A stretch of DNA of 64,000 nt from Diprion similis (lineage: Eukaryota > Arthropoda > Insecta > Hymenoptera > Diprionidae): the NCBI RefSeq assembly GCF_021155765.1, contig NC_060107.1:15176501-15240500 (forward strand), given 5' to 3'. Below the pieces are notes generated by a model that saw only the letters and a program-made list of their open reading frames with translations, searched no databases and was not told the DNA's origin. How positions within the stretch are numbered: the first letter of the stretch is position 1; every line of letters begins with the position of its first letter. A program made the translations under genes and the position numbers. Below are positions 35,652 to 64,000 of this stretch, piece by piece.

Positions 35652-37396
35652 TCAATAGAGCATTGCTAGCCAGCCGAGGATGAAGCAAGTGCCGCCGAAC
35701 GGTGTCACTTTGCTGAATCGTTTGTCGGAGGTAAATGCAAAGTAGTAGCAAGGACCGCAGAACATCAGAATACCGGAAACCATGAAGACACCAGCCTAGA
35801 ACATGCAACCTTATGAACACCTGTACACTTCATGTATTTAAGAAAATCTGTCCAGAAGCTAGCGAAGGTTCTTACCACATTGGACGCCCTACAAAGCGGC
35901 AGGCCCAGCAGGGCCAAAGTGTGAATAAAGTGGTACCTATTGGCCGTTTCAAAAATCCTGATACTATCTCTGGCGGTGTCTTTCGGATATTGTCCTGAAG
36001 TCATTTATACAGTTAATAGTATTATTTCTACAAAGTGTCGTGTAGATTTTGAATCAGAGGTAGAGGTGAAACAAGTGTAAAAAACAATTCAACATACCTA
36101 AGAATCAATAGTCCCGTTGCATAGAAATGATTCTGTACAAATTTGAAGTATACAAGATACCATAATTTTTTACATTCAGTTGGTTTTTTTTTTAGATAAT
36201 TGTTTTGGTCAGCAAAACGTTTAAAATGACTAAACTCTGCTATTTTCAGCCAATTTTAATGTTTTTCGGCACATTTTGCTCACTTACCAAATCTCCACAA
36301 GTTTTTGGAAAAAAATCAAGAAAACTTACAGTATAACGTGTTTATGATGGACATGAAGTGTAATGTTCATAAACATCTTTTGGGTCACGATCGCACTAAT
36401 CGATTTGTACACAGTTTAAAGATAAATAATTGTAAAAATTTTCTCAGACTATCTGTGGTAATCTCTGTGGTTATCAAAATAACGCAACAAACATTAGAAT
36501 CGGATGAAACAACACCAGAGGTTGATTATTTCGAATGTTTTAATTATAAAACCTTTTCTCAAATTGTTGAAATCTTAGCTTGTGTTATTCGAATCTGCTC
36601 AGAATCAGTGATATTTGTAGTAGTGATGTTATTTCATTTGTGTTCAGTAATTGGCACAAATATAATTGTCGAGATTTTTTCCTCAGATTTTTTATCTGTT
36701 TTCATCTCCTGATTTGGATGGTAAGGCCTGTTCATTCTTAAAGGAAGGTCAAGTCAACATATTCCAACTTACGGTGAGCTCCGTATGCACCAAGGATTAC
36801 CGCTAACGCTCCACTGAATGCTGCAAGTCTCACGTAAGGTCCGGTAGTGGCTGCAAGCTTCCATAACGGAACAGGAGATGGTACAACCATTTTAAAATCT
36901 GCCTGTGGAGTTAATCCTACGTAACTCACTAACTGAAATTAAAAAAACAAAATATAATTAAATTGACTTTCTCTGTGATCAATGTGGTTGTAGTACTAAT
37001 GCTTGAAAATTTATGAGGCGAATAACTACCAGCAACGTGAATTACTAAGATCAACATTCTGGGTATGAAAATATCTGTCACAAAGTTGAAATAAAAATAT
37101 ATTTAAAAAAAAAAGGGACAATATGTGAATTTACTTTTTCATTTAATTAAGTATACTAGGTAGATACATGTAATTATTAATTGTTCAAATATACAAATGC
37201 AGTGCATGACATTTACTTATGTCTGTTCTGAGTGGAAAAATACTAATGATATGAAAATAAATAATGCGATGTCATGCAGTGTGCTCGTGAATCGATTAAC
37301 ACTTACGCCGGTGATTGTGCTCTTAGCGATGTCAAATGCGTTAGAACTGAGGGGATTAGTATACAACGCGTAATTCAACGCTTCTTGAATTCCCAT
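35652..37396 (-). CDS. TMEM256: TMEM256 / DUF423-family small membrane protein (4 exons, complete)
   Basis: Minus-strand exons 37396-37307, 36932-36773, 35994-35876 and 35795-35652 join at GT-AG sites to give 170 aa. Family motifs are YVRLAAFSGALAVILGAYGA followed by H-R, then an ANRYHFIHTLALLGLPLC helix. Two further hydrophobic helices follow: AGVFMVSGILMFCGPCYYFA and TPFGGTCFILGWLAMLY. This is the layout of TMEM256 (DUF423), a small multi-pass membrane protein of poorly known function, found in vertebrate mitochondria-rich tissues and exosomes. The human protein is about 113 aa; the extra N-terminal 55 residues here (MGIQEALNYALYTNPLSSNA onward) come from exon 1 and the start of exon 2 and seem to be an insect extension. 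The ATG at 37396 was preferred over an upstream in-frame TTG. Intron 2 holds a family A foldback repeat. Confidence 0.88.
36060..36720. repeat. Dispersed repeat family A, copy 6, complete foldback (TMEM256 intron 2)
   Basis: The left part is in plus orientation ('catagaaatgattctg', 'gactaaactctgctatttt'). The right part is inverted: the reverse complement of 36539-36600 reads 'aataacacaagctaagattt', then 'tttgagaaaaggttttataa', matching the left arms of the other copies. This is the clearest evidence that family A has long terminal inverted arms. The open frame across it is not a gene. Confidence 0.65.
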
Positions 37397-38284: not shown

Positions 38285-38972
38285 TTATTGTGGAATGCGT
38301 TGTAAAGAACGTATCAAAAGCTAGAGCCAAGAAACGAAAAATTTCCTTCGTAATTCCATTGCTGTTAAACCTATGCTATTTTTAATGTCTTTATCGCATT
38401 CCCCAGGGACCAATTAGCGAAAATAGAATCTTGTAGAACAGTTCTGGGACGAGAAGTATCCGAGCTCTGAAAATCGCGAAAAAACAAGGCTAATCCCTTT
38501 GGATTTGATTGGCTGAAATTTAGCGAATTTAAAAAACTTGCACTGCAGTTGGTCTACGCTCTTTTTGCTGTATTTTCTACGTTTCTGAGTGTCCGAATAG
38601 TCTAGGAAGGGTCATACAAATCGTATTCAAGACAAAATATTTTTCGCCCAAAAAATAAGTAAGGCTAACCCACCTGGATTTTTTGCAAAAATTTCGATGA
38701 CTTTGAAAAATGCTGCAAAAACTTCTTTGTTACACTATTCCAACGTCGTTATGCGAGAGAAATCGATGGAACGCAGTCCCAACATGCTGCGAACAGCGCG
38801 TAAAAAGTGACAGCCGAAAAACTGAAAATTTTTATCGTCATTTCTATGCTGTTGGTCCTACGCTCTTTTTGCTGTGTTTTCTGAGTTCCTAAGCGTCCAA
38901 TTAATCTAGGAAGGGTCATGCAAATCGGTTCCGAGACGAAAAATTCTCGGCTCCAAAAAAGTAAGGCTAACC
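38285..38972 (+). repeat. Left degenerate edge of the 312-bp satellite, part 1
   Basis: Diverged monomers can be aligned block by block with the core: 'aaaagctagagccaagaaacg', then 'attccattgctgttaaacct', then 'cccagggaccaattagcg', then 'aaggctaatccctttggat'. Similarity fades towards 38285, which is taken as the approximate edge. Confidence 0.7.
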
Positions 38973-39685
38973 CACATGCTGTTTGCCACCAGGAGAATAC
39001 CAGACGTATGCCAGGCATACGTGAAGAACGCACTAGTGCGGCTTGAACGAAAGCTGGAAGAGATGAAAGAAAGAGAGCACATCCACGAACATGACACCAG
39101 AGCCAGGACACGAGAAAACCTCACACTACCAAAAACTAAAACAACAATTGGGCATAGACCGGAAAAAGTGATTGTAAACAAGCTATATAATAGAATGCCA
39201 TGAAAATAGAGCAAAAATGTGTTGAGGGGTTTCAAAAAAAGTATTACAAAATGGATTGTACAACAGGGAAGAAATTTTTACGATAGACTCACCATCACTA
39301 AAAAATCAGCTGCTGAAAAAACTGTCTAAGAAAATAGAAGTATACCAAATGTTTATTGATGAGTATGAGTGAGTTAATGAGTATAGATGAAAAATTAAGT
39401 ACAAGTGAATCGATAAGTATAGGCTGATGAACGAATAGGAAGTATTGATGAGTGATAAGTGTGAAATCGTGGATAATTAGGTGCAGATGTAAATGAATGA
39501 AATGCAAGCACACAAATGAAGCAATAAATTGTAATTTGAAAATAAGCGTAACAACTTGCCACTAGGGAAAGAAAACGACTCCAGCCAAACAAGCATATTA
39601 GATGCTCAGGCACAGGAGACCAAAAAATATCGATAAGAAGAAAGATCGGTATGTAAAAAATTCAGAACGTGATTTCAATAAATCT
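38973..39685 (+). mobile_element. 5'-truncated non-LTR retrotransposon (LINE) fragment inserted in satellite edge
   Basis: The satellite breaks off at about 38973 and resumes at about 39686. The insert has an open frame at 38976-39203 ending TRENLTLPKTKTTIGHRPEK, then VIVNKLYNRMP. Further on in the same frame it reads FKKSITKWIVQQGRNFYDRL. The order 'TR..nl.lP..kT.iG', 'lyN.lP', 'FKk...wl....fY' is the C-terminal tail after the reverse transcriptase of CR1/Jockey-like LINEs. Stops interrupt it, and the 3' part is AT-rich UTR-like sequence. It is dead. Confidence 0.65.
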
Positions 39686-40590
39686 AATGGACGTCAAAAA
39701 ATGCTGCAAATAACTCTTTCATGCACTATTCCGACGTAATCTTGTGAAAGAAATCGATTGAATGCATTCCCAATACGCTGTGAGCAACGGATCAAGGGTT
39801 ACAGCCGAAGAACTGAAGACATCCTTTTTCTTATTATTTTCATGCTGGTCTCCCATACTTAATTTCTTTGCTGTTGATTCCCACAATAGTTTTCATGTGT
39901 TTTCCTGAGTTCCTGGGCGTCCAATTAATCTAGAAAAGGTCATGCAAATCGATTTCGAGACGAAAAATTCTCGGCTCAAAAAATGACCAAAAAGTACGGC
40001 TAACGCCTTTGGAATTTTTGAGAAAATTTCTGCGATTCTGAAAAGTACTGTGATGAATTCTTTCAGGCACTATTCCGACGAAATTTTGCGGGAGATATCG
40101 AATGAGCGCAGTCCAAATGCGCTGCGAGTAACGAAACAAAAGTTACAGCCAAATAACGAAAGACGTATTTTCTCAATTTTTCTGCTGCTGGTCTTTGCGT
40201 CGTGATTTCTCTGCTGTTAGTCCTACGCTCTTTTTGCTGTGTTATCTGAGCTTCTGGGCGTCCGATTAATCTAGATAAGGTCATACAAATCGACTCCAAG
40301 TCGAAATATTCTCGGCTCAAAAATGATCAAGAAAGTAGGGCTAACCCCTTTGGATTTTTCCGAATATTTCGACACTTTTGGGAAGTGTTGCAACAAATTC
40401 TTTGAGGTACTATTCCGACGTAATTTTGCGAGAGAAATCGATTGTGCGCATTCTGAATGCGCTGCGAGTGACGGATCAAAAATTAGAGCCAAAAAACGGA
40501 AGATGAATTTTTTTTATTTTTCTGCTGCTGGTCTTTTTGTCGTCGTTTCGATGGCGTTTATCCTACGCTCTTTTTGCTGTGTTTTATAAG
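39686..40590 (+). repeat. Left degenerate edge of the satellite, part 2
   Basis: Two to three diverged monomers with spacing of about 340 bases (the 'gagttcctggg'-type block recurs near 39910, 40250 and 40595), against 312 in the core. Extra sequence lies between the 'cagcc' block and the 'ctgctgttggtcct' block, which is itself partly duplicated (40180-40225). Confidence 0.75.
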
Positions 40591-43500
40591 TAGCTGGGCT
40601 TCTAATCAATCTGAAAAAGGGTCATACTAATCGATTCCGAAACAAGAAATTCTCGGTTCCAAAAATGTCCAAAAAAGTGAGGCTAACCCCTTTGGATTTT
40701 TGCCGGAAATTTGGACCACTTCGAAAAGTGCTGCAATTATTTCTTTAGGGCACTATTCTGACATAATTTTGCGGGAGAAATCGATTGAGTGCAGTCCGAA
40801 TACGCTGCGAGCAACGGTTTAAAAGTTACAGCCAAAAAACTGCGGATTTTCGTCGTCATTTCTCTGCTGTTGGTCCTAAGCTTTTTTCAGTGTGTTTTTT
40901 GAGTTCCTGGGGTTCCAATTAGCCAAAAAATGGTCATACAAATCAATTCGGAGACCAGAAATTTTCGGCTCCAGAAATCGCAAAAATAGTGAGGCTAACC
41001 CCTTTGGATTTTTGCCGAAAATTTTGACGATTCCGGAAAATGCTGCAATTAATTCTTTAGGGCACTATTCCGACGTAATTTTGCGGGAGAAATCGTTTAA
41101 GCACAGTCACAATACGCTGCGAGCAACGGATCAAAAGTGACGGTCAAAAAACCGCAGATTTTCGTCGTCATTTCTCTGCTGTTGGTCCTACGCTGTTTTC
41201 AACGTGTTTTTTGAGTTCCTGGGGTTCCAATTAGCCAAAAATTGGTCATACAAATCAATTCGGAGATCAGAAATTTTCGGCTCCAGAAATCGCGAAAAAA
41301 GTAAGGCTAACCCCTTTGGATTTTTGCCGAAAATTTGAACGACTCCGGAAAATGCTGCAATTAATTCTTCAGGGCACTATTCCGACGTAATTTTGCGGGA
41401 GAAATCGATTGAGCACAGTCCCAATACGCTGCGAGCAACGGATCAAAAGTAACAGCTCAAAAACTGCGAAATTTCGTCGTCATTTCTCTGCTGTTGGTCC
41501 TACGCAGTTTTTAATGCGTTTTTTGAGTTCCTGGGGTTCCAATTAGCCGAATAATGGTCATACAAATCAATTCGGAGACCAGAAATTTTCAGCTCCAGAA
41601 ATCGAAAAAAAAGTAAGGCTAACCGCTTTGGATTTTTGCCGAAAATTTCGACGACTTCGGAAAATGCTGCAATTAATTCTTTAGGGCACTATTCCGACGT
41701 AATTTTGCGGGAGAAATCGATTGAGCACAGTCCCAATACGCTGCGAGCAACGAATCAAAAGTTACAGTCAAAAAACTGCAGATTCTCGTCGTTATTGCTC
41801 TGCTGTTGGTCCTGAGTATTTTTCAATGTGTTTTTTGAGTTCCTGGGGTTCCAATTAGCCAAAAAATGGTCATACAAATCAATTCGGAGACCAGAAATTT
41901 TCGGCTCCAGAAATCGCGAAAAAAGTAAGGCTAACCCCTTTGGATTTTTGCCGAAAATTTTAACGACTCCGGAAAATGCTGCAATTAATTCTTCAGGGCA
42001 CTATTCCGACGTAATTTTGCGGGAGAAATCGATTGAACACAGTCCCAATACGCTGCGAGCAACGGATCAAAAGTTACAGTCAAAAAACTGCAGATTCTCG
42101 TCGTCATTTCTCTGCTGTTGGTCCTAAGCATTTTTCAATGTGTTTTTTGAGTTTCTAGGGTTCCAATTAGCCAAAGAATGGTCATACAAATCAATTCGGA
42201 GACCAGAAATTTTCAGCTCCAGAAATTGCAAAAAAAGTAAGGCTAACCCCTTTGAATTTTTGCCGAAAATTTTGACGACTTCGGAAAATGCTGCAATTAA
42301 TTCTTTGGGGCACTATTCCGACGTAATTTTGCGGGAGAAATCGATTAAACACAGTCACAATACGCTGCGAGCAACGGATCAGAAGTTCGAGTCAAAAAGC
42401 TGCAGATTTTCGTCGTCATTTCTCTGCTGTTGGTCCTAAGCATTTTTTAATGTGTTTTTTGAGTTCCTGGGGTTCCAATTAGCCAAAAAATGGTCATACA
42501 AATCAATTCGGGGACCAGAAATTTTCGGCTCCAGAAATCGCAAAAAAAGTAAGGCTAACCCCTTTGGATTTTTGCCAAAAATTTTGACGACTTCGGAAAA
42601 TGCTGCAATTAATTCTTTGGGGCACTATTCCGACGTAATTTTGCGGGAGAAATCGATTAAACACAGTCACAAAACGCTGCGAGCAACGGATCAGAAGTTA
42701 CAGTCAAAAAACTGCAGATTTTCGTCGTCATTTCTCTGCTGTTGGTCCTAAGCATTTTTTGATGTGTTTTTTGAGTTCCTGGGGTTCCAATTAGCCAAAA
42801 AATGGTCATACAAATCAATTCGGAGACCAGAAATTTTCGGCTCCAGAAATCGCAAGAAAAGTAAGGCTAACCCCTTTGGATTTTTGCCGAAAATTTTGAC
42901 GACTCCGGAAAATGCTGCAAATAATTCTTTGGGGCACTATTCCGACGTAATTTTGCGGGAGAAATCGATTGAACACAGTCCCAATACGCTGCGAGCAACG
43001 GATCAGAAGTTACAGTGAAAAAACTGCAGATTTTCGTCGTCATTTCTCTGCTGTTGGTCCTGAGCATTTTTAAATGTGTTTTTTGAGTTCCTGGGGTTCC
43101 AATTAGCCAAAAAATGGTCATACAAATCAATTGGAAGACCAGAAATTTTCGGCTCCAGAAATCGCAAAAAAAGTAAGGCTAACCCCTTTGGATTTTTGCC
43201 GAAAATTTTGACGACTTCGGAAAATGCTGCAATCAATTCTTTGGGGCACTATTCCGACGTAATTTCGCGAGAGAAATCGATTGAGCACAGTCCCAATACG
43301 CTGCGAGCAACGGATCACAAGTTACAGCTCGAAAACTGCGGATTTTCGTCGTCATTTCTCTGCTGTTGGTCCTACGCAGTTTTTAATGCGTTTTTTGAGT
43401 TCCTGGGGTTCCAATTAGCCGAAAAATGGTCATACAAATCAATTCGGAGACCAGAAATTTTCGGCTCCAGAAATCGAAAAAAAAGTAAGGCTAACCCCTT

Positions 43501-44824
43501 TGGATTTTTGCCGAAAATTTCGACGACTTCGGAAAATGCTGCAATTAATTCTTTAGGGCACTATTCCGACGTAATTTTGCGGGAGAAATCGATTGAGCAT
43601 AGTCCCAATACGCTGCGAGCAGCGGATCAAAAGTGACAGTCAAAAAACTGCAGATTCTCGTCGTCATTTCTCTGCTGTTGGTCCTACGCTGTTTTCAACG
43701 TGTTTTTTGAGTTCCTGGGGTTCCAATTAGCCAAAAAATGGTCATACGAATCAATTCGGAGACCAGAAATTTTCGGCTCTAGAAATCGCAAAAAAAGTAA
43801 GGCTAACCCCTTTGGATTTTTGCCGAAAATTTCGACAACTTCGGAAAATGCTGCAATTAATTCTTTGGGGCACTATTCCGACGTAATTTTGCGGGAGAAA
43901 TTGATTGAGCACAGTCCCAATACGCTGCGAGCAACGGATCAAAAGTTACAGCGAAAAAACTGCAGATTTTCGTCGTCATTTCTCTGCTGTTGGTCCTACG
44001 CTGTTTTCAACGTGTTTTTTGAGTTCCTGGGGTTCCAATTAGCCAAAAAATGGTCATACAAATCAATTCGGAGACCAGAAATTTTCGGCTCTAGAAATCG
44101 CAAAAAAAGTGAGGCTAACCCCTTTGGATTTTTGCCGAAAATTTCGACGACTTCGGAAAATGCTGCAATTAATTCTTTAGGGCACTATTCCGACGTAATT
44201 TTGCGGGAGAAATCGATTGAGCACAGTCCCAATACGCTGCGAGCAACGGATCAAAAGTTACAGCGAAAGAACTGCAGATTTTCGTCGTCATTTCTCTGCT
44301 GTTGGTCCTACGCTGTTTTCAACGTGTCTTTCGAGTTCCTGGGGTTCCAATAAGCCAAGAAATGGTCATACAAATCAATTCGGAGACCAGAAATTTTCGG
44401 CTCTAGAAATCGCAAAAAAAGTGAGGCTAACCCCTTTGGATTTTTGCCGAAAATTTCGACGACTTCGGAAAATGCTGCAATTAATTCTTTAGGGCACTAT
44501 TCCGACGTAATTTTGCGGGAGAAATCGATTGAGCACAGTCCCAATACGCTGCGAGCAACGGATCAAAAGTTACAGCGAAAAAACTGCAGATTTTCGTCGT
44601 CATTTCTCTGCTGTTGGTCCTACGCTGTTTTCAACGTGTCTTTCGAGTTCCTGGGGTTCCAATAAGCCAAGAAATGGTCATACAAATCAATTCGGAGACC
44701 AGAAATCTTCGGCTCTAGAAATCGCAAAAAAAGTAAGGCTAACCCCTTTGGATTTTTGCCGAAAATTTCGACGACTTCGGAAAATCTTGCAATTAATTCT
44801 TTAGGGCACTATTCCGACGTAATT

Positions 44825-47195
44825 TTGCGGGAGAAATCGATTGAGCACAGTCCCAATACGCTGCGAGCAACGGATCAAAAGTTACAGCAAAAAAACTGCA
44901 GATTTTCGTCGTCATTTCTCTGCTGTTGGTCCTACGCTGTTTTCAACGTGTTTTTTGAGTTCCTGGGGTTGCACTTAGCCAAAAAATGGTCATACAAATT
45001 AATTCGGAGACCAGAAATTTTCGGCTCTAGAAATCACAAAGAAAGTAAGGCTAACCCCTTTGGATTTTTGCCGAAAATTTTGACGACTTCGGAAAATGCT
45101 GCAATTAATTCTTTGGGGCACTATTCCGACGTAATTTTGCGGGAGAAATCGATTGAGCACAGTCCCAATACGCTGCGAGCAACGGATCAAAAGTGACAGC
45201 GGAAAAACTGCAGATTCTCGTCGTCATTTCTCTGCTGTTGGTCCTACGCTGTTTTCAACGTGTTTTTTGAGTTCCTGGGGTTCCAATAAGCCAAGAAATG
45301 GTCATACAAATCAATTCGGAGACCAGAAATTTTCGGCTCTAGAAATCGCAAAAAAGTAAGGCTAACCCCTTTGGATTTTTGCCGAAAATTTCGACGACTT
45401 CGGAAAATGCTGCAGTTAATTCTTTAGGGCACTATTCCGACGTAATTTTGCGGGAGAAATCGATTGAGCACAGTCCCAATACGCTGCGAGCAACGGATCA
45501 AAAGTTACAGTCAAAAAACTGCAGATTCTCGTCGTCATTTCTCTGCTGTTGGTCCTACGCTGTTTTCAATGTGTTTTTTGAGTTCCTGGGGTTCCGATTA
45601 GCCAAAAAATAGTCATACAAATCAATTCGGAGACCAGAAATTTTCATCTCCAGAAATCGCAAAAAAAGTAAGGCTAACCCCTTTGGATTTTTGTCAAGAA
45701 TTTTGACGACTTCATAAAATGCTGCAATTAATTCTTTAGGGCACTATTCCGACGTGATTTTGCGGGAGAAATCGATTGAGCACAGTCTTAATACGCTGCG
45801 AGCAACGGATCAAAAGTTACAGGGAAAAAACTGCAGATTTTTGTCGTCATTTCTCTGCTGTTGGTCCTACGCTGTTTTCAACGTGTCTTTCGAGTTCCTG
45901 GGGTTTCAATAAGCCAAGAAATGGTCATACAAATCAATTCGGAGACCAGAAATTTTCATCTCCAGAAATCGCAAAAAAAGTAAGGCTAACCCCTTTGGAT
46001 TTTTGTCAAAAATTTTGACGACTTCATAAAATGCTGCAATTAATTCTTTAGGGCACTATTCCGACGTGATTTTGCGGGAGAAATCGATTGAGCACAGTCC
46101 CAATACGCTGCGAGCAACGGATCAAAAGTTACAGCAAAAAAACTGCAGATTTTCGTCGTCATTTCTCTGCTGTTGGTCCTACGCTGTTTTCAACGTGTTT
46201 TTTGAGTTGCTGGGGTTGCACTTAGCCAAAAAATGGTCATACAAATTAATTCGGAGACCAGAAATTTTCGGCTCTAGAAATCACAAAGAAAGTAAGGCTA
46301 ACCCCTTTGGATTTTTGCCGAAAATTTTGACGACTTCGGAAAATGCTGCAATTAATTCTTTGGGGCACTATTCCGACGTAATTTTGCGGGAGAAATCGAT
46401 TGAGCACAGTCCCAATACGCTGCGAGCAACGGATCAAAAGTGACAGCGGAAAAACTGCAGATTCTCGTCGTCATTTCTCTGCTGTTGGTCCTACGCTGTT
46501 TTCAACGTGTTTTTTGAGTTCCTGGGGTTCCAATAAGCCAAGAAATGGTCATACAAATCAATTCGGAGACCAGAAATTTTCGGCTCTAGAAATCGCAAAA
46601 AAGTAAGGCTAACCCCTTTGGATTTTTGCCGAAAATTTCGACGACTTCGGAAAATGCTGCAGTTAATTCTTTAGGGCACTATTCCGACGTAATTTTGCGG
46701 GAGAAATCGATTGAGCACAGTCCCAATACGCTGCGAGCAACGGATCAAAAGTTACAGTCAAAAAACTGCAGATTCTCGTCGTCATTTCTCTGCTGTTGGT
46801 CCTACGCTGTTTTCAATGTGTTTTTTGAGTTCCTGGGGTTCCGATTAGCCAAAAAATAGTCATACAAATCAATTCGGAGACCAGAAATTTTCATCTCCAG
46901 AAATCGCAAAAAAAGTAAGGCTAACCCCTTTGGATTTTTGTCAAGAATTTTGACGACTTCATAAAATGCTGCAATTAATTCTTTAGGGCACTATTCCGAC
47001 GTGATTTTGCGGGAGAAATCGATTGAGCACAGTCTTAATACGCTGCGAGCAACGGATCAAAAGTTACAGGGAAAAAACTGCAGATTTTTGTCGTCATTTC
47101 TCTGCTGTTGGTCCTACGCTGTTTTCAACGTGTCTTTCGAGTTCCTGGGGTTCCAATAAGCCAAGAAATGGTCATACAAATCAATTCGGAGACCA
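44825..47195 (+). repeat. Recent tandem duplication of a four-monomer block inside the satellite
   Basis: 44825-45948 and 46072-47195 are nearly identical at an offset of 1247 bases. They share private variants such as 'aatcacaaagaaagtaagg' (45035 and 46282) and 'gtcaagaattttgacg'. One of the rare differences is cctgggg against gctgggg. Confidence 0.85.
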
Positions 47196-48869
47196 GAAAT
47201 TTTCGGCTTCAGAAATCGCAAAAAAAGTAAGGCTAACCCCTTTGGATTTTTGCCGAAAATTTCGACGACTTCGGAAAATCTTGCAATTAATTCTTTAGGG
47301 CACTATTCCGACGTAATTTTGCGGGAGAAATCGATTGAGCACAGTCCCAATACGCTGCGAGCAACGGATCAAAAGTGACAGCGAAAAAACTGCAGATTCT
47401 CGTCGTCATTTCTCTGCTGTTGGTCCTACGCTGTTTTCAACGTGTTTTTTAAGTTCCTGGGGTTCCAATAAGCCAAGAAATGGTCATACAAATCAATTCG
47501 GAGACCAGAAATTTTCGGCTCTAGAAATCGCAAAAAAAGTAAGGCTAACCCCTTTGGATTTTTGCCGAAAATTTCGACGACTTCGGAAAATGCTGCAGTT
47601 AATTCTTTAGGGCACTATTTCGACGTAATTTTGCGGGAGAAATCGATTGAGCACAGTCCCAATACGCTGCGAGCAACGGATCAAAAGTTACAGCAAAAAA
47701 ACTGCAGATTTTCGTCGTCATTTCTCTGCTGTTGGTCCTACGCTGTTTTCAACGTGTTTTTTGAGTTCCTGGGGTTGCACTTAGCCAGAAAATGGTCATA
47801 CAAATCAATTCGGAGACCAGAAATTTTCGGCTCTAGAAATCACAAAAAAAGTAAGGCTAACCCCTTTGGATTTTTGCCGAAAATTTCGACGACTTCGGAA
47901 AATGCTGCAGTTCATTCTTTAGGGCACTATTCCGACGTATTTTGCGGGAGAAATCGATTGAGCACAGTCCCAATACGCTGCGAGCAACGGATCAAAAGTT
48001 ACAGTCAAAAAACTGCAGATTCTCGTCGTCATTTCTCTGCTGTTGGTCCTACGCTGTTTTTAATGTGTTTTTTGAGTTCCTGGGGTTCCGATTAGCCAAA
48101 AAATAGTCATACAAATCAATTCGGAGACCAGAAATTTTCATCTCCGGAAATCGCAAAAAAAGTAAGGCTAACCCCTTTGGATTTTTGTCAAAAATTTTGA
48201 CGACTTCATAAAATGCTGCAATTAATTCTTTAGGGCACTATTCCGACGTGATTTTGCGGGAGAAATCGATTGAGCACAGTCCCAATACGCTGCGAGCAAC
48301 GGATCAAAAGTTACAGGGAAAAAACTGCAGATTTTCGTCGTCATTTCTCTGCTGTTGGTCCTACGCTGTTTTCAACGTGTCTTTCGAGTTCCTGGGGTTC
48401 CAATAAGCCAAGAAATGGTCATACAAATCAATTCGGAGACCAGAAATTTTCGGCTCTAGAAATCGCAAAAAAAGTAAGGCTAACCCCTTTGGATTTTTGC
48501 CGAAAATTTCGACGACTTCGGAAAGTCTTGCAATTAATTCTTTAGGGCACTATTCCGACGTAATTTTGCGGGAGAAATCGATTGAGCACAGTCCCAATAC
48601 GCTGCGAGCAACGGATCAAAAGTTACAGTCACAAAACTGCAGATTCTCGTCGTCATTTCTCTGCTGTTGGTCCTACGCTGTTTTCAATGTGTTTTTCGAG
48701 TTCCTGGGGTTCCGATTAGCCAAAAAATAGTCATACAAATCAATTCGGAGACCAGAAATTTTCATCTCCGGAAATCGCAAAAAAAGTAAGGCTAACCCCT
48801 TTGGATTTTTGTCAAAAATTTTGACGACTTCATAAAATGCTGCAATTAATTCTTTAGGGCACTATTCCG

Positions 48870-51800
48870 ACGTGATTCCGCGGGAGAAATCGATTGAGCA
48901 CAGTCCCAATACGCTGCGAGCAACGGATCAAAAGTTACAGCGAAAAAACTGCAGATTTTCGTCGTCATTCCTCTGCTGTTGGTCCTACGCTGTTTTCAAC
49001 GTGTTTTTTGAGTTCCTGGGGTTGCACTTAGCCAAAAAATGGTCATACAAATTAATTCGGAGACCAGAAATTTTCGGCTCTAGAAATCACAAAAAAAGTA
49101 AGGCTAACCCCTTTGGATTTTTGCCGAAAATTTTGACGACTTCGGAAAATGCTGCAATTAATTCTTTGGGGCACTATTCCGACGTAATTTTGCGGGAGAA
49201 ATCGAATGAACACAGTCACAATACGCTGCGAGCAACGGATCAGAAGTTACAGTCAAAAAAATGCAGATTCTCGTCGTCATTTCTCTGCTGTTGGTCCTAC
49301 GCTGTTTTCAATGTGTTTTTTGAGTTCCTGGGGTTCCAATTAGCCAAAAAATGGTCATACAAATCAATTCGGAGACCAGAAATTTCCGGCTCCAGAAATC
49401 GCAAGAAAAGTAAGGCTAACCCCTTTGGATTTTTGTCAAAAATTTTGACGACTTTATAAAATGCTGCAATTAATTCTTTAGGGCACTATTTCGACGTAAT
49501 TTTGCGGGAGAAATCGATTGAGCACAGTCCCAATACGCTGCGAGCAACGGATTAAAAGTGACAGCGAAAAAACTGCAGATTCTCGTCGTCATTTCTCTGC
49601 TGTTGGTCCTACGCTGTTTTCAACGTGTTTTTTGAGTTCCTGGGGTTCCAATAAGCCAAGAAATGGTCATACAAATCAATTCGGAGACCAGAAATTTTGG
49701 GCTCTAGAAATCGCAAAAAAAGTAAGGCTAACCCCTTTGGATTTTTGCCGAAAATTTCGACGACTTCGGAAAATGCTGCAGTTGATTCTTTAGGGCACTA
49801 TTCCGACGTAATTTCGCGGGAGAAATCGATTGAGCACAGTCCCAATACGCTGCGAGCAACGGATCAAAAGTTACAGCGAAAAAACTGCAGATTTTCGTCG
49901 TCATTTCTCTGCTGTTGGTCCTACGCTGTTTTCAACGTGTTTTTTGAGTTCCTGGGGTTGCACTTAGCCAGAAAATGGTCATAAAATCAATTCGGAGACC
50001 AGAAATTTTCGGCTCTAGAAATCACAAAAAAAGTAAGGCTAACCCCTTTGGATTTTTGCCGAAAATTTCGACGACTTCGGAAAATGCTGCAGTTAATTCT
50101 TTAGGGCACTATTCCGACGTAATTTGCGGGAGAAATCGATTGAGCACAGTCCCAATACGCTGCGAGCAACGGATCAAAAGTTACAGTCAAAAAACTGCAG
50201 ATTCTCGTCGTTATTTCTCTGCTGTTGGTCCTAAGTATTTTTCAATGTGTTTTTTGAGTTCCTGGGGTTCCAATTAGCCAAAAAATGGTCACACAAATCA
50301 ATTCGGAGACCAGAAATTTTCGGCTCCAGAAATTGCAAAAAAAGTAAGGCTAACCCCTTTGGATTTTTGCCGAAAATTTTGACGACTTCGGAAAATGCTG
50401 CAATTAATTCTTTGGGGCACTATTCCGACGTAATTTTGCGGGAGAAATCGATTGAACACAGTCACAATACGCTGCGAGCAACGGATCAAAAGTGACAGCG
50501 AAAAAACTGCAGATTCTCGTCGTCATTTCTCTGCTGTTGGTCCTACGCTGTTTTCAACGTGTTTTTTGAGTTCCTGGGGTTCCAATAAGCCAAGAAATGG
50601 TCATACAAATCAATTCGGAGACCAGAAATTTTCGGCTCTAGAAATCGCAAAAAAAGTAAGGCTAACCCCTTTGGATTTTTGCCGAAAATTTCGACGACTT
50701 CGGAAAATGCTGCAATTAATTCTTTAGGGCACTATTCCGACGTAATTTTGCGGGAGAAATCGATTGAGCACAGTCCCAATACGCTGCGAGCAACGGATCA
50801 AAAGTTACAGCAAAAAAACTGCAGATTTTCGTCGTCATTTCTCTGCTGTTGGTCCTACGCTGTTTTCAACGTGTTTTTTGAGTTCCTGGGGTTGCACTCA
50901 GCCAAAAAATGGTCATACAAATCAATTCGGAGACCAGAAATTTTCGGCTCTAGAAATCGCAAAAAAAGTGAGGCTAACCCCTTTGGATTTTTGCCGAAAA
51001 TTTCGACGACTTCGGAAAATGCTGCAATTAATTCTTTAGGGCACTATTCCGACGTAATTTTGCGGGAGAAATCGATTGAGCACAGTCCCAATACGCTGCG
51101 AGCAACGGATCAGAAGTTACAGTCAAAAAACTGCAGATTCTCGTCGTCATTTCTCTGCTGTTGGTCCTACGCTGTTTTCAATGTGTTTTTTGAGTTCCTG
51201 GGGTTCCAATCAGCCAAAAAATGGTCATACAAATCAATTCGGAGACCAGAAATTTTCGGCTCCAGAAATCGCAAGAAAAGTAAGGCTAACCCCTTTGGAT
51301 TTTTGTCAAAAATTTTGACGACTTTATAAAATGCTGCAATTAATTCTTTAGGGCACTATTTCGACGTAATTTTGCGGGAGAAATCGATTGAGCACAGTCC
51401 CAATACGCTGCGAGCAACGGATCAAAAGTGACAGCGAAAAAACTGCAGACTCTCGTCGTCATTTCTCTGCTGTTGGTCCTACGCTGTTTTCAATGTGTTT
51501 TTTGAGTTCCTGGGGTTCCGATTAGCCAAAAAATAGTCATACAAATCAATTCGGAGACCAGAAATTTTCATCTCCAGAAATCGCAAAAAAAGTAACCCCT
51601 TTGGATTTTTGTCAAAAATTTTGACGACTTCATAAAATGCTGCAATTAATTCTTTAGGGCACTATTCCGACGTGATTTCGCGGGAGAAATCGATTGAGCA
51701 CAGTCCCAATACGCTGCGAGCAACGGATCAAAAGTTACAGCGAAAAAACTGCAGATTTTCGTCGTCATTTCTCTGCTGTTGGTCCTACGCTGTTTTCAAC

Positions 51801-52260
51801 GTGTTTTTTGAGTTCCTGGGGTTGCACTCAGCCAAAAAATGGTCATACAAATTAATTCGGAGACCAGAAATTTTCGGCTCTAGAAATCACAAAAAAAGTA
51901 AGGCTAACCCCTTTGGATTTTTGCCGAAAATTTTGACGACTTCGGAAAATGCTGCAATTAATTCTTTGGGGCACTATTCCGACGTAATTTTGCGGGAGAA
52001 ATCGAATGAACACAGTCACAATACGCTGCGAGCAACGGATCAGAAGTTACAGTCAAAAAACTGCAGATTCTCGTCGTCATTTCTCTGCTGTTGGTCCTAC
52101 GCTGTTTTCAATGTGTTTTTTGAGTTCCTGGGGTTCCAATTAGCCAAAAAATGGTCATACAAATCAATTCGGAGACCAGAAATTTTCGGCTCCAGAAATC
52201 GCAAAGAAAGTAAGGCTAACCCCTTTGGATTTTTGTCAAAAATTTTGACGACTTTATAAA
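48870..52260 (+). repeat. Satellite block repeated at an offset of 2800 bases
   Basis: The two-monomer stretch 48872-49459 recurs at 51672-52259 with shared private changes, for example 'aaatcgaatgaacacagtca' at 49200 and 52000. The order of subtypes is partly conserved between the two stretches. Confidence 0.7.
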
Positions 52261-52969
52261 ATGCTGCAATTAATTCTTGAGGCCACTATTTCAACGTAAT
52301 TTTGCGGGAGAAATCGATTGAGCACAGTCCCAATACGCTGCGAGCAACGGATCAGAAGTGACAGCGAAAAAACTGCAGATTCTCGTCGTCATTTCTCTGC
52401 TGTTGGTACTACGCTGTTTTCAACGTGTTTTTTGAGTTCCTGGGGTTCCAATAAGCCAAGAAATGGTCATACAAATCAATTCGGAGACCAGAAATTTTCG
52501 GCTCTAGAAATCGCAAAAAAAGTAAGGCTAACCCCTTTGGATTTTTGCCGAAAATTTCGACGACTTCGGAAAATGCTGCAGTTAATTCTTTAGGGCACTA
52601 TTCCGACGTAATTTTGCGGGAGAAATCGATTGAGCACAGTCCCAATACGCTGCGAGCAACGGATCAAAAGTTACAGCAAAAAAACTGCAGATTTTCGTCG
52701 TCATTTCTCTGCTGTTGGTCCTACGCTGTTTTCAACGTGTTTTTTGAGTTCCTGGGGTTGCACTTAGCCAGAAAATGGTCATACAAATCAATTCGGAGAC
52801 CAGAAATTTTCGGCTCTGGAAATCACAAAAAAAGTAAGGCTAACCCCTTTAGATTTTTGCCGAAAATTTCGACGACTTCGGAAAATGCTGCAATTAATTC
52901 TTTAGGGCACTATTCCGACGTAATTTTGCGGGAGAAATCGATTGAGCACAGTCCCAATACGCTGCGAGC

Positions 52970-55776
52970 AACGGATCAAAAGTTACAGTCAAAAAACTGC
53001 AGATTCTCGTCGTTATTTCTCTGCTGTTGGTCCTAAGTATTTTTCAATGTGTTTTTTGAGTTCCTGGGGTTCCAATTAGCCAAAAAATGGTCACACAAAT
53101 CAATTCGGAGACCAAAAATTTTCGGCTCTAGAAATCGCAAAAAAAGTGAGGCTAACCCCTTTGAATTTTTGCCGAAAATTTCGACGACTTCGGAAAATGC
53201 TGCAATTAATTCTTTAGGGCACTATTCCGACGTAATTTTGCGGGAGAAATCGATTGAGCACAGTCCCAATACGCTGCGAGCAACGGATCAAAAGTTACAG
53301 TCAAAAAACTGCAGATTCTCGTCGTTATTTCTCTGCTGTTGGTCCTAAGTATTTTTCAATGTGTTTTTTGAGTTCCTGGGGTTGCACTTAGCCAAAAAAT
53401 GGTCATACAAATTAATTCGGAGACCAGAAATTTTCGGCTCTAGAAATCACAAAAAAAGTAAGGCTAACCCCTTTGGATTTTTGCCGAAAATTTTGACGAC
53501 TTCGGAAAATGCTGCAATTAATTCTTTGGGGCACTATTCCGACGTAATTTTGCGGGAGAAATCGAATGAACACAGTCACAATACGCTGCGAGCAACGGAT
53601 CAGAAGTTACAGTCAAAAAACTGCAGATTCTCGTCGTCATTTCTCTGCTGTTGGTCCTACGCTGTTTTCAATGTGTTTCTTGAGTTCCTGGGGTTCCAAT
53701 TAGCCAAAAAATGGTCATACAAATCAATTCGGAGACCAGAACTTTTCGGCTCCAGAAATCGCAAAAAAAGTAAGGCCCTTTGGATTTTTGCCGAAAATTT
53801 CGACGACTTCGGAAAATGCTGCAATTAATTCTTTAGGGCACTATTCCGACGTAATTTTGCGGGAGAAATCGATTGAGCACAGTCCCAATACGCTGCGAGC
53901 AACGGATCAAAAGTTACAGTCAAAAAACTGCAGATTCTCGTCGTCATTTCTCTGCTGTTGGTCCTACGCTGTTTTCAATGTGTTTTTTGAGTTCCTGGGG
54001 TTCCGATTAGCCAAAAAATAGTCATACAAATCAATTCGGAGACCAGAAATTTTCATCTCCAGAAATCGCAAAAAAAGTAAGGCTAACCCCTTTGGATTTT
54101 TGTCAAAAATTTTGACGACTTCATAAAATGCTGCAATTAATTCTTTAGGGCACTATTCCGACGTGATTTTGCGGGAGAAATCGATTGAGCACAGTCCCAA
54201 TACGCTGCGAGCAACGGATCAAAAGTTACAGCAAAAAAACTGCAGATTTTTGTCGTCATTTCTCTGCTGTTGGTCCTACGCTGTTTTCAACGTGTTTTTT
54301 GAGTTCCTGGGGTTGCACTTAGCCAAAAAATGGTCATACAAATTAATTCGGAGACCAGAAATTTTCGGCTCTAGAAATCACAAAAAAAGTAAGGCTAACC
54401 CCTGTGGATTTTTGCCGAAAATTTTGACGACTTCGGAAAATGCTGCAATTAATTCTTTGGGGCACCATTCCGACGTAATTTTGCGGGAGAAATCGAATGA
54501 ACACAGTCACAATACGCTGCGAGCAACGGATCAGAAGTTACAGTCAAAAAACTGCAGATTCTCGTCGTCATTTCTCTGCTGTTGGTCCTACGCTGTTTTC
54601 AACGTGTTTTTTGAGTTCCTGGGGTTCCAATAAGCCAAGAAATGGTCATACAAATCAATTCGGAGACCAGAAATTTTCGGCTCTAGAAATCGCAAAAAAG
54701 TAAGGCTAACCCCTTTGGATTTTTGCCGAAAATTTCGACGACTTCGGAAAATGCTGCAGTTAATTCTTTAGGGCACTATTCCGACGTAATTTTGCGGGAG
54801 AAATCGATTGAGCACAGTCCCAATACGCTGCGAGCAACGGATCAAAAGTTACAGTCAAAAAACTGCAGATTCTCGTCGTTATTTCTCTGCTGTTGGTCCT
54901 AAGTATTTTTCAATGTGTTTTTTGAGTTCCTGGGGTTCCAATTAGCCAAAAAATGGTCACACAAATCAATTCGGAGACCAAAAATTTTCGGCTCTAGAAA
55001 TCGCAAAAAAAGTGAGGCTAACCCCTTTGAATTTTTGCCGAAAATTTCGACGACTTCGGAAAATGCTGCAATTAATTCTTTAGGGCACTATTCCGACGTA
55101 ATTTTGCGGGAGAAATCGATTGAGCACAGTCCCAATACGCTGCGAGCAACGGATCAAAAGTTACAGTCAAAAAACTGCAGATTCTCGTCGTTATTTCTCT
55201 GCTGTTGGTCCTAAGTATTTTTCAATGTGTTTTTTGAGTTCCTGGGGTTGCACTTAGCCAAAAAATGGTCATACAAATTAATTCGGAGACCAGAAATTTT
55301 CGGCTCTAGAAATCACAAAAAAAGTAAGGCTAACCCCTTTGGATTTTTGCCGAAAATTTTGACGACTTCGGAAAATGCTGCAATTAATTCTTTGGGGCAC
55401 TATTCCGACGTAATTTTGCGGGAGAAATCGAATGAACACAGTCACAATACGCTGCGAGCAACGGATCAGAAGTTACAGTCAAAAAACTGCAGATTCTCGT
55501 CGTCATTTCTCTGCTGTTGGTCCTACGCTGTTTTCAATGTGTTTCTTGAGTTCCTGGGGTTCCAATTAGCCAAAAAATGGTCATACAAATCAATTCGGAG
55601 ACCAGAACTTTTCGGCTCCAGAAATCGCAAAAAAAGTAAGGCCCTTTGGATTTTTGCCGAAAATTTCGACGACTTCGGAAAATGCTGCAATTAATTCTTT
55701 AGGGCACTATTCCGACGTAATTTTGCGGGAGAAATCGATTGAGCACAGTCCCAATACGCTGCGAGCAACGGATCAA
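52970..55776 (+). repeat. Satellite three-monomer block repeated at an offset of 1866 bases
   Basis: About 940 bases at 52970-53910 recur at 54836-55776 with the same rare variants: 'gaccaaaaattttcgg', 'cagaacttttcggc' and the deletion 'aaggccctttgg'. This marks a very recent duplication or conversion. Confidence 0.85.
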
Positions 55777-58140
55777 AAGTGACAGCGAAAAAACTGCAGA
55801 TTCTCGTCGTCATTTCTCTGCTGTTGGTCCTACGCTGTTTTCAACGTGTTTTTTGAGTTCCTGGGGTTCCAATAAGCCAAGAAATGGTCATACAAATCAA
55901 TTCGGAGACCAGAAATTTTCGGCTCTAGAAATCGCAAAAAAAGTAAGGCTAACCCCTTTGGATTTTTGCCGAAAATTTCGACGACTTCGGAAAATGCTGC
56001 AATTAATTCTTTAGGGCACTATTCCGACGTAATTTTGCGGGAGAAATCGATTGAGCACAGTCCCAATACGCTGCGAGCAACGGATCAAAAGTTACAGCAA
56101 AAAAACTGCAGATTTCCGTCGTCATTTCTCTGCTGTTGGTCCTACGCTGTTTTCAACGTATTTTTTGAGTTCCTGGGGTTGCACTTAGCCAAAAAATGGT
56201 CATACAAATCAATTCGGAGACCAGAAATTTTCGGCTCTAGAAATCACAAAAAAAGTAAGGCTAACCCCTTTGGATTTTTGCTGAAAATTTCGACGACTTC
56301 GGAAAATGCTGCAATTAATTCTTTAGCGCACTATTCCGACGTAATTTTGCGGGAGAAATCGATTGAGCACAGTCCCAATACGCTGCGAGCAACGGATCAA
56401 AAGTTACCGTCAAAAAACTGCAGATTCTTGTCGTTATGTCTCTGCTGTTGGTCCTAAGTATTTTTCAAAGTGTTTTTTGAGTTCCTGGGGTTCCAATTAG
56501 CCAAAAAATGGTCATACAAATCAATTCGGAGACCAGAAATTTTCGGCTCCAGAAATCGCAAAAAAAGTAAGGCTAACCCCTTTGGATTTTTGCCGAAAAT
56601 TTTGACGACTCCGGAAAATGCTGCAATCAATTCTTTGGGGCACTATTCCGACGTAATTTCGCGGGAGAAATCGATTGAGCACAGTCCCAATACGCTGCGA
56701 GCAACGGATCAAAAGTTACAGCGAAAAAACTGCAGATTCTCGTCGTCATTTCTCTGCTGTCGGTCCTACGCTGTTTTCAATGTGTTTTTTGAGTTCCTGG
56801 GGTTCCAATTAGCCAAAAAATGGTCATACAAATCAATTCGGAGACCAGAAATTTTCGGCTTCAGAAATCGCAAAAAAAGTAAGGCTAACCCCTTCGGATT
56901 TTTGCCGAAAATTTTGACGACTCCGGAAAATGCTGCAATTAATTCTTTGGGGCACCATTCCGACGTAATTTTGCGGGAGAAATCGATTGAGCACAGTCCC
57001 AATACGCTGCGAGCAACGGATCAAAAGTTACAGTCAAAAAACTGCAGATTCTCGTCGTCATTTCTCTGCTGTTGGTCCTAAGCATTTTTCAATGTGTTTT
57101 TTGAGTTTCTAGGGTTCCAATTAGCCAAAGAATGGTCATACAAATCAATTCGGAGACCAGAAATTTTCGGCTCCAGAAATCGCAAAAAAAGTAAGGCTAA
57201 CCCCTTTGGATTTTTGCCGAAAATTTTGACGACTCCGGAAAATGCTGCAATCAATTCTTTGGGGCACTATTCCGACGTAATTTCGCGGGAGAAATCGATT
57301 GAGCCCAGTCCCAATACGCTGCGAGCAACGGATCAAAAGTTACAGCGAAAAAACTGCAGATTCTCGTCGTCATTTCTCTGCTGTTGGTCCTACGCTGTTT
57401 TCAATGTGTTTTTTGAGTTCCTGGGGTTCCAATTAGCCAAAAAATGGTCATACAAATCAATTCGGAGACCAGAAATTTTCGGCTCCAGAAATCGCAAAAA
57501 AAGTAAGGCTAACCCCTTTGGATTTTTGCCGAAAATTTTGACGACTTCGGAAAATGCTGCAATCAATTCTTTGGGGCACTATTCCGACGTAATTTCGCGG
57601 GAGAAATCGATTGAGCTCAGTCCCAATACGCTGCGAGCAACGGATCAAAAGTTACAGCGAAAAAACTGCAGATTCTCGTCGTCATTTCTCTGCTGTTGGT
57701 CCTACGCTGTTTTCAATGTGTTTTTTGAGTTCCTGGGGTTCCAATTAGCCAAAAAATGGTCATACAAATCAATTCGGAGACCAGAAATTTTCGGCTCCAG
57801 AAATCGCAAAAAAAGTAAGGCTAACCCCTTTGGATTTTTGCCGAAAATTTTGACGACTTCGGAAAATGCTGCAATTAATTCTTTGGGGCACTATTCCGAC
57901 GTAATTTTGCGGGAGAAATCGATTGAGCACAGTCCCAATACGCTGCGAGCAACGGATCAAAAGTTACAGCGAAAAAACTGCAGATTTTTGTCGTCATTTC
58001 TCTGCTGTTGGTCCTACGCTGTTTTCAATGTGTTTTTTGAGTTCCAGGGGTTCCAACTCGCCAAGAAGCGGTCATACAATTCAATTTGGAGACCAGAAAT
58101 TTTCGGCTTCAAAAATCTCAAAAAAAAGTAAGGCTAACCC

Positions 58141-58925
58141 CTTTGGATTTTTGGCGGAAATTTCCACGATTCCGAAAAGTGCTGCAATAAATTCTTTGAG
58201 CCACTATTCTGACGTAATTTTGCGTGAGGATCGATTAAGCGGAGTCCCAATACGCTGCGAGCGATAGCTGAAAAGTTACAGCCGAAAAACTCAAAATTTT
58301 CATCGTCACTTCTCTGCTGCTGGTCCTACGCTTCTCGTTCATGTGTTTCCTGAGTTCCTGGGCATTGAATTACCCTAGAGATGGTCATACAAAGCGATTC
58401 CGAGACGAGAAATTTTCGGCCCCGAAAATGACCAAAAAACTAAGACTAACCCCTTTTGATTTCTGTTGAAATTTCCTACGAAATTGAAGAATTCCGCAAT
58501 CCATTCTTCGTTGCCCTAATCCCACGTAATCTTGTGAGGGAAATCGATCGCACGCAGTCCCAATAATGCGTGAGCAACTGATCAAAAGTTACAGCCGAAG
58601 AACGAAAGACTGACTTTTTTGATTCCGTTACTACTGGACTTGTATCCGTCATTTTGCTGCTTTAGGCCCTACGCTATTTTTGACTCGTTTTTCGAGTTTT
58701 TGGGGGTCCAATCAGTTCAGAAAGGGACATGTAAATCAATCTTGAGACAATAATTTTCTCACCCCAACAAAAAAGTAAGGCCAGCCCCGACGGATTGTTG
58801 GTGAAAGTTTTGACTTTGAAAAATGCTGCACGTAATATTTTAATGCACTATTTTGACGTCATTCCACGATAGGAAATAATTGAACGCAGTCAGAATACGC
58901 TGCGAACTACTGAATGACGAGAACC
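58141..58925 (+). repeat. Right degenerate edge of the satellite, part 1
   Basis: Monomers are still alignable ('cccaatacgctgcgagcgat', 'tctctgctgctggtcctacg', 'aaaagttacagccgaagaac'), but divergence rises steadily and the spacing lengthens to about 340 bases (58345 to 58685). Confidence 0.75.
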
Positions 58926-59355
58926 GTTGAAACACATTAAATATGCCCCAGCACCCATCAGGAAGGGAAATGAATTTATTGCTACGAAACTTTATTCCTG
59001 TACAGTTTCAGTACATTTATTACGCCTTAATCCTAATACATGTGTTAGGGTGTCAGTCTATAATACGTAATGAAGTTCATGAATATAATACTAAGGTACA
59101 TGGCAGTATTTAAGAAATGATCGAACATTACATAACAAAGCTGACTATCATCTTAGAATGAACAAGTACAATACATATTACCTTAACCAGCGTATGACAA
59201 GTAGTATAACAGATAGTATTTAATCAAGTTTGTGAGTACATATTAAGTTTTACCCTGCGCATAGGCGCAATGCACCTTGGCAGGATACGATATACCTATA
59301 TAACAGTGTATTGTTATATGCAGCACGAATTAGAATGAATGAATAACAACTTTCT
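58926..59355. mobile_element. Unidentified insertion of about 430 bp in the right satellite edge
   Basis: Satellite similarity stops after 'gacgagaaccgttga' and resumes near 59355. The insert is AT-rich, with the motif 'ttaccctgcgcataggcgca' then 'atgcaccttggcaggatacg' near 59250. No ORF, terminal repeat or target duplication was found, so its class is unknown. Confidence 0.45.
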
Positions 59356-59745
59356 GCGTGTTTTCTTCGTATTTCCCCAAAGGTCCGTCGCTATTTTACT
59401 TCCGTTTTTGAGTTCCTGGGTGTCCAATTGGTTAAGGAAGGGTTACACAAATCGATTTCGAGACGACAGATTTTTCGCCCAAAAAATAAATAAGGCAGAT
59501 TTATTACAAGAATCTTGAATATAAAAAAAAATTGTTTCTCGCCCGATATCAAAGAAATTTCGCGAGAAAAATCGACTGCGCGCAGTCCGAATACGCTCCG
59601 AGCAACGAATCAAGAGTTACAGCGACAAAACGAAAAAATTTTCTCGCAACTCCGCCGCTGTCGACCCTACGCCCTTTTTGGTGCTTTGATGTCCAAATAC
59701 CTTAGACAGGTTTATACAAATCGAATATCAGACGACAAATTATCT
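59356..59745 (+). repeat. Right degenerate edge of the satellite, part 2
   Basis: Old monomer copies: 'tttttgagttcctgggtgtcc', 'cacaaatcgatttcgagac', 'gcagtccgaatacgctccga' and 'aatcaagagttacagcgac'. Similarity ends near 59745. Confidence 0.7.
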
Positions 59746-60904
59746 GTTCGGTAAATCACGATACACGTAACCAAGAGTACGCGTGGATAACTGTTCGACT
59801 TGAGCAGAGCTCTGTGTTATAAATTATTTGCCCATGAATAAATTTTACATGAATAATGACTTCTGTAATATAAATGTCTTATACATAAATTAAATGGATC
59901 ACAGACTAATAATTCATTATCACTATGCAGACAAGTAATTCATAATATAAGTCTCAATATTCTTTTAAATATTTTTTATAAGTTTTCATCCCTTCTTTTA
60001 TCTTATAAGGATAAGATAAGACAATATAGTAAGGATTACATAAATCACGTTCACTTTCATATTCTATAGCAAATCGGATGGCACTTTTTTGATTATCAAT
60101 TAGATTGTTTTTAATCAACATGGGAACTTATAAATCTTCGACGTGTACAGAATTCTGCTTAATTGTAAGTCATACAGTTATTTCACCAATACCCTCAATT
60201 ACAGCATAATGAGAAAGAAATTAAATTATCCCACACTTTGGATGACAATTAGCCCTCGTATTTCGTCTTTTCGTGATACCCGGAAACAATGACCCTGTTC
60301 GGAACAGATCGTATTGCTGCTACCGCGGACACATTTTCATGAGCAGTTTTTCGCAGTCGTAGCGTGGCGCTGTGCTACCGCAGCATTTTTCTACCCGTGA
60401 AAATCTAGCCTGAGCTGCGTTCTGAAATCTCATTCGAGTTAATTCAGGTATCATCGTATCTCTGTCAAACGCATAAGATCAAACAGAGAAACAACAATAC
60501 TCGAGTAACTCGAATAAGGTTTCAGGCAGGCCTGTGATTCTATCGTCATGTATTGGTGCGTTCCGAAATTAGCTGGCAGCGCTAAAAACTCCCTAGGACA
60601 GTGTCAGAGCTAATCACGAACTTTGGAGCGCAAAAGAGATAAAACGAATACTATAATTATTCTCTGGCGTTTTGCCTGTCAATTTCCCTAAAATCCTGTT
60701 CACACTACATACATGTCAAGCTTAGAGCATATGTTCTAAGATGTCAAGCGCTGCCGAACTTATGTCGGCATAGATTGATGTAGATTCCATGTAGATTCCT
60801 CCAAATTCTTCGCATGTATCGTCTGTGTTTTCAAGTTCTGCCGTGAGTGAGGTGATTACCGATTAGTGAAAGCTGAGAAATTCAGACTTATTCTCCTGCT
60901 TACA
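59746..60904. other. Spacer and probable promoter / 5' UTR of OTUD6B
   Basis: AT-rich to about 60240, then more mixed sequence. 'acccgtgaaaatctagcctg' at about 60400 is the inverse of a motif left of the satellite. No gene was recognised before the OTUD6B ATG, and the transcription start was not located. Confidence 0.35.
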
Positions 60905-63895: not shown

Positions 63896-64000
63896 GTAAA
63901 TTCTTACTCATCGATTGTTTATATGTCGACAAAAAAAAATCATGGACACTTTTCACTGTTCATCGATACGAAATTCCATGTTTTCGGACAGCAGTTGAAC

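Follow-up and report, generated by a model that had tools for sequence, protein, structure and literature searches.

A 312-bp satellite array among genes of Diprion similis is probably an expanded repeat of a dispersed DNA transposon family

The DNA transposon Tetris of Drosophila virilis contains internal tandem repeats, TIR-220, that have been amplified to arrays of up to 66 copies (PMC4079207). The principle that a transposon can give rise to a satellite is already known in D. virilis and in oyster (PMC4079207, PMC7492417, PMC12628747). Here we analyse a 64,000-nucleotide stretch of the hymenopteran Diprion similis (NC_060107.1, here C3:15,176,501–15,240,500; hereafter the window), in which a homogenised array of a 312-bp repeat lies between two genes. 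The assembly comprises 269 Mb in 60 contigs (denoted C, with individual loci denoted L); 14 of the 20 contigs checked are large, at 10.9–28.0 Mb each, and jointly make up most of it. Judging from sequence comparison, we consider it likely that the array arose when a tandem repeat inside a DNA transposon expanded locally, the transposon belonging to a dispersed family that has terminal inverted repeats (TIRs). The original prediction, made from the letters of the window, had named an expanded piece of a transposon among several possible origins, and this one gained support: a segment, a 3′ tail, a 5′ block and TIRs accompany the satellite at other loci.

Tandem Repeats Finder (TRF) reported a period of 312 with 57.7 copies and 93% matches at 40,614–58,603, and a walk with the Basic Local Alignment Search Tool (BLAST) placed 55 full-length 312-bp monomers in succession at 40,894–58,031, all on the forward strand and 90.7–96.5% identical to one reference monomer. 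The homogenised head-to-tail array of the original prediction (40,590–58,140) is confirmed by both methods; its homogeneous core falls short of the predicted limits by about 0.3 kb on the left and about 0.1 kb on the right, and its eroded edges had been overlooked. Core monomers differ by 5.7% on average in pairwise comparison, nearly independently of distance (5.5% at lag 1, 6.1% at lag 50), and no higher-order period was seen at the lags tested. With eroded monomers included, the feature spans 38,294–59,769 and holds 20.1 kb of satellite. On the left, eroded forward-strand monomers form an outer part (38,294–38,974) and an inner part (39,698–40,893) that includes longer copies of about 342 bp. 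On the right, identity to the core monomer drops stepwise through 84, 75 and 71% (58,032–58,912, forward strand, with one 343-bp copy) and then to 66% (59,405–59,769, forward strand), past a non-satellite segment; no tail or inverted-repeat end was detected there. Four aligned edge monomers, two from the window and one each from L029 and L031, measure 335–343 bp and carry 25–30 extra bases near core position 258–269. Arrays of this longer form occur at C6:9.73–9.76 Mb and C2:11.67–11.68 Mb.

The window array is one among very many. A monomer 24-mer, allowed up to three mismatches, matched the genome 43,625 times (22,602 forward, 21,023 reverse), against 1 and 0 for reversed-pattern controls. 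At 312 bp per match this amounts to 13.6 Mb, or 5.1% of the assembly, which is if anything an underestimate, because 57 pattern matches in the window represent its 20.1 kb of satellite. On 11 of the 14 large contigs, monomers lie at a minimum of 46 separate places, counting the window; some of these places are single matches. Such an array had been called unusual in gene-dense DNA; this may hold generally, but not here, where the satellite occurs at many places in the genome. Satellite arrays are commonly mis-assembled, and the array or its length might be an artefact of that kind. We regard this as most improbable: the window monomers differ from one another to the extent given above, the array gives way by gradual erosion to unlike DNA at either edge, and locus-specific variants of the family occur on 11 large contigs, so that doubt is limited to the exact copy number. 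No publication on the 312-bp repeat was found by title or abstract in the open-licence PMC literature.

Evidence for a carrier begins with the segment in the right edge (58,913–59,404, 492 bp, forward strand), the only recognisable carrier module in the window. It recurs at 39 other scored places with 67–78% identity (40 of 55 candidates were scored). We read ten of these 39: L038–L045, which are eight of the nine best by rank, and L046 and L048, near which an array or tail was known. All ten adjoin monomers in the same orientation. Nine have monomers on either side, and at L046 (C3:11.112M) a 5′ block of the carrier takes their place on one side. With random, independent placement in a genome that is 5–10% satellite, eight out of eight would arise with a probability of about 4e-11 to 1e-8. 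Among ten copies (L038–L045, L031 and the window), the preceding monomer ends at position 267–282 in seven and the next begins at position 2–4 in six. A profile found the segment at 14 loci (the window, L029, L031 and L038–L048). Five of these (L040, L041, L044, L047 and L048) share a common tail that follows after one monomer, interrupted in L048. Their sequences diverge immediately past a common terminus, whose last letters, CAACG, are kept in four of the five. At the other nine loci, no tail was found in the DNA read.

The 5′ side of the carrier was recognised in a non-satellite block that borders the C3:11.1M array on the left; the genome has 134 candidate places for it, of which 40 were scored. 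This block also stands upstream of the segment at C6:1.709M, as it does at L046, and for at least five of the 40 listed blocks a listed segment follows 0.5–2.1 kb downstream on the same strand. When 40 blocks were compared with 40 tails, 12 pairs had the expected order and strand and lay no more than 70 kb apart (4.7–63.6 kb), five at 4.7–5.3 kb and seven at 19.6–63.6 kb. Random placement of tails gave a mean of 0.31 pairs and a maximum of 4 in 2,000 trials, and reversed order gave none. Five compact elements were distinguished, on C2, C7, C10, C12 and C13. The one on C7 (C7:9971650–9976455) has perfect 25-base TIRs; the match stops after 25 bases, and the flanks TAGGCAA and TAGGCGA agree in six of seven letters. 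An 18-mer from the TIR matched the genome 279 times (139 forward, 140 reverse), against two in the control. At C10:680,564–700,242, a single unit of 19.7 kb is delimited consistently by TIRs, 5′ block and tail.

The most complete case lies at C3:11.11–11.14 Mb, where a near-identical array stands between the 3′ module and the 5′ block of the TIR family. Direct reading of about 13 of its 27 kb (both ends and two stretches) gave block, segment, array, segment, monomer and tail. Its ends look alike by eye only; local alignment did not single the match out, and no target duplication was seen. The satellite repeat thus lies inside an element with conserved ends at C3:11.1M, and a shared 3′ module accompanies it at five loci; at the window copy no such ends were detected. 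At five or more places among the matches listed, two TIR ends face each other within 30–41 bp in a palindrome-like arrangement (C2:1584199–1584230, C2:2523732–2523772, C7:9469443–9469474, C8:21724446–21724477 and C10:5449470–5449499); these may be footprints or minimal elements.

We then asked how the arrays relate to one another, comparing 218 full-length monomers, taken from 11 arrays and from four segment loci. For 190 of the 218, the nearest relative lies in the same array; the main exception is C3:13.3M, where eight of 14 monomers are nearest to other arrays. Internal difference ranges from 0.6% (C3:11.1M) to 13–14% (C1:0.97M and C2:8.8M, edges included). The repeat accordingly has the features of satellite DNA, with long head-to-tail arrays homogenised within each array and a sequence that is likely to be non-coding. 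Closeness between contigs was also found: C1:4.95M differs from C4:13.4M by 4.3% and from C3:13.3M by 4.4%. One array (C4:17604542–17611909, L001–L003) rises weakly in self-identity at 7 monomers (98.2%) and at 13 (98.5%) above a level of about 97%, and possibly has a higher-order repeat, unlike the window array.

A two-clock comparison used the five loci that have both segment and core (the window, L029, L031, C3:11.1M and L038, the last contributing three diverged monomers only). In all ten locus pairs, the core consensus diverges less than the segment (2.9–14.9% against 21.4–43.9%); the window and L031, for example, differ by 5.1% in the core and 41.0% in the segment, and L031 and L029 by 2.9 and 42.6%. 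Mean monomer differences in place of the consensus give the same sign in all ten pairs, narrowly so for the window and L038 (19.7 against 21.4%). Because homogenisation within each locus should not by itself bring cores at different loci closer together than their accompanying flanks, copying between loci is the simplest reading, and core sequence has probably been exchanged between loci after seeding.

These patterns suggest a three-step history. Carriers with the layout 5′ end, block A/B, segment, monomers, segment, one monomer, tail and 3′ end would have been seeded across the chromosomes long ago by some transposase, as the modules shared between loci suggest. At many seeds, monomers would then have multiplied by unequal exchange to kilobases or tens of kilobases, and the array edges would retain carrier modules together with monomers that are older and often longer. 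Finally, the distances suggest that, after seeding, 312-bp cores may pass between different chromosomes, either by gene conversion or through DNA circles that re-enter, which would yield young-looking cores between old-looking flanks. The window copy would then represent an old seed whose core has been re-homogenised and whose only recognisable carrier remnant is the segment, and the array most likely has no host function. A wider version of this history can be put forward only tentatively: that a single transposon family seeded the satellite over most chromosomes, that cores are still copied between them as the seed flanks decay, with about 5% of the genome in concert among genes, and that some carriers are whole, satellite-filled TIR elements of 20–64 kb.

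Several observations weigh against a transposon origin with later exchange. The window has a single carrier module, with no 5′ block or tail detected. Among seven arrays chosen by their satellite, the 3′ edge lacks the segment in three (C1:0.97M, C1:1.18M and the start of C11); of the four that bear it, C3:11.1M was chosen for reading because a tail was already listed at that place. The same locus is the one long block–tail pair, of seven, that was read directly. Pairing on opposite strands, a further control, gave four pairs, and the putative target duplication comes from one element, that on C7. For exchange in particular, the segments at L029 and L031 are damaged, and a difference of 36.5% separates the two copies of the segment within the one C3:11.1M carrier. 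This within-carrier difference means that the segment is no clean seeding clock; it weakens the third step and leaves exchange probable, not necessary, and segment differences may be older than seeding. No transposase was found for the carrier: of 89 genome matches to PF21787 (P superfamily) and 116 to PF05699 (hAT; 150 of 160 candidates scored), none lies within the five compact elements, although a carrier without its own transposase may remain compatible with both results. Beyond segment and tail, array flanks compared with monomers masked have little in common.

Some of these points would fit an independent satellite that came first, with transposons bearing the segment, 5′ block and tail inserting into monomers or capturing them and then spreading with them, for example as circles. 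Under such a history, the window, L029 and L031 could have the segment without a tail or 5′ block, the segment could be missing from the three 3′ edges named above, and its interruption of the monomer near position 270 would look like an insertion. Repeated insertion does not readily account for the remainder: orientation and order are the same at all ten segment loci read, one monomer separates segment from tail at the five loci with a common terminus, and 12 blocks and tails pair in order. Because constant order, common terminus and ordered pairs indicate one carrier unit, not repeated insertion, we regard a satellite-first origin as unlikely and favour expansion from within the carrier.

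As to the class of that carrier, a foldback element was rejected: monomers on both sides of the segment have one orientation at nine loci, and the C7 TIR is only 25 bases long. Helitrons and Helentrons (HINE) are marked by the absence of a target duplication, a 3′ hairpin and characteristic ends; the perfect 25-base TIRs at C7 weigh against them. Several matches to the P-type transposase domain PF21787 lie in open frames of 400–890 codons (examples of matches are C1:15729981–15730379, C10:2168032–2168430 and C14:5019199–5019597), and young P-like elements may be present in the genome.

The 723-bp dispersed repeat that interrupts the eroded left edge (38,975–39,697) was considered as a further carrier part and rejected. 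It has 30 other scored places with 67–82% identity, a 75-codon open stretch at 38,976–39,203 and no Pfam domain. None of the 30 lies in the five compact elements; three lie within 10 kb of known arrays, and one lies inside the block–tail pair at C8:15.17–15.21M. Because it is absent from the compact elements and has no Pfam domain, we take it as an unrelated insertion that, so far as observed, does not belong to the carrier and is perhaps the end of a truncated retroelement. Rfam at gathering thresholds gave no match in window positions 38,000–60,500.

The original prediction had also raised a young centromere-type repeat. The unit length, head-to-tail order, homogeneous core and high copy number of the window array would suit a young or former centromere satellite, but its distribution does not: one main locus per chromosome would be expected, and monomers occupy the 46 or more places given above, including at least 11 on C1 alone. 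The monomer also has no close CENP-B box, the best candidate showing two mismatches in nine fixed positions of the motif. A 279-bp satellite behaves otherwise. It gave 31,377 24-mer matches (12,193 forward, 19,184 reverse; control 0), or about 8.8 Mb, and among the 100 places listed it forms one region of less than 0.8 Mb, on one strand, on each of C1–C4 (C1 14.24–15.01, C2 3.53–3.55, C3 17.12–17.15 and C4 8.92–9.01 Mb). It further occupies the first 10 kb of C6, C8, C12 and C15. By its arrangement in the assembly, the 279-bp satellite is a better centromere candidate than the 312-bp one. Because the 312-bp repeat is scattered and the 279-bp family fits better, we set the centromere reading aside as very unlikely; a long homogeneous satellite between genes is not necessarily centromeric. 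A 148-bp family was seen at C14 and C16.

Coding potential was assessed at the level of the monomer. One forward frame of the window consensus is open through all 104 codons, and 312 and 342 are both multiples of three. Monomers free of stops in some forward frame number 14 of 55 in the window, 0 of 30 at C3:11.1M, 0 of 7 at C1:0.97M and 0 of 9 at C1:1.18M; they are frequent elsewhere (26 of 30 at C1:4.95M and 9 of 10 at C4:17.6M). The window counts do not support a coding repeat, a rejection that is less than complete for the 312-bp branch, and the monomer is likely to be non-coding.

The flanking genes had been named TMEM256 and OTUD6B, and the first name held. Reverse-strand open reading frames (ORFs) at 35,655–35,795 and 35,768–36,004 match DUF423/TMEM256 (PF04241; E values of 6.8e-10 and 4.8e-8), and another at 36,741–36,938 resembles the first TMEM256 exon by eye, with no match in the search. 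The right neighbour, on the forward strand, is presumably OTUD6B, a name taken from the original prediction; its exon ORF at 63,456–63,899 matched no Pfam family and no PDB chain, and an OTU domain would fall outside the window. The two genes seem to point away from each other, with the array between them. Open stretches at 61,724–62,392, apparently in the first intron of the right gene, look by eye like a transposase remnant and include a weak match to DUF7005 (62,084–62,392, E = 0.032). At contig ends, (TTAGG)n stands at the start of C1, C2, C3 and C13, and variant telomere-like repeats occur as a 10-bp unit, ACCCAACCTG, at L019:3315–9572 (start of C11) and an 11-bp unit, AACCTGACCTA, at L015:698–1601 (start of C7). 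On C11, the 10-bp repeats directly adjoin a 17.6-copy 312-bp array that begins 4 kb from the contig start.

What the genome of D. similis offers is the set of stages side by side: carrier, short internal repeat, homogenised array and probable interchromosomal exchange lend themselves to comparison from locus to locus within one chromosome-scale assembly. The seed can be dated by its flank modules and the last homogenisation by the core, which would make measurable how satellites come into gene-rich DNA and how their copies remain similar. As in Tetris (PMC4079207), repeats internal to a transposon become satellite arrays that exist largely without the element. Tetris is described there as foldback-like, with its repeats inside long TIRs and amplified in beta-heterochromatin (PMC4079207), whereas the Diprion family has a TIR of about 25 bases (at C7), repeats in one orientation between the ends, scattered arrays and a share of about 5% of the genome. 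Cg_HINE of Crassostrea gigas likewise combines satellite-like central repeats, conserved flanking modules and dispersal as a mobile element (PMC7492417). Those elements are classed as non-autonomous Helentrons (PMC7492417), whereas in Diprion the compact relative carries perfect TIRs, possibly with a short target duplication, and arrays reach tens of kilobases. TCAST of Tribolium castaneum is similarly an abundant insect satellite with copies among genes in euchromatin; it is the major pericentromeric satellite of its genome (PMC3411249), whereas the centromere candidate of Diprion is the separate 279-bp family. The Diprion satellite is notable for the scale it reaches, for how widely it is spread over the contigs and for the exchange that probably took place between its loci.

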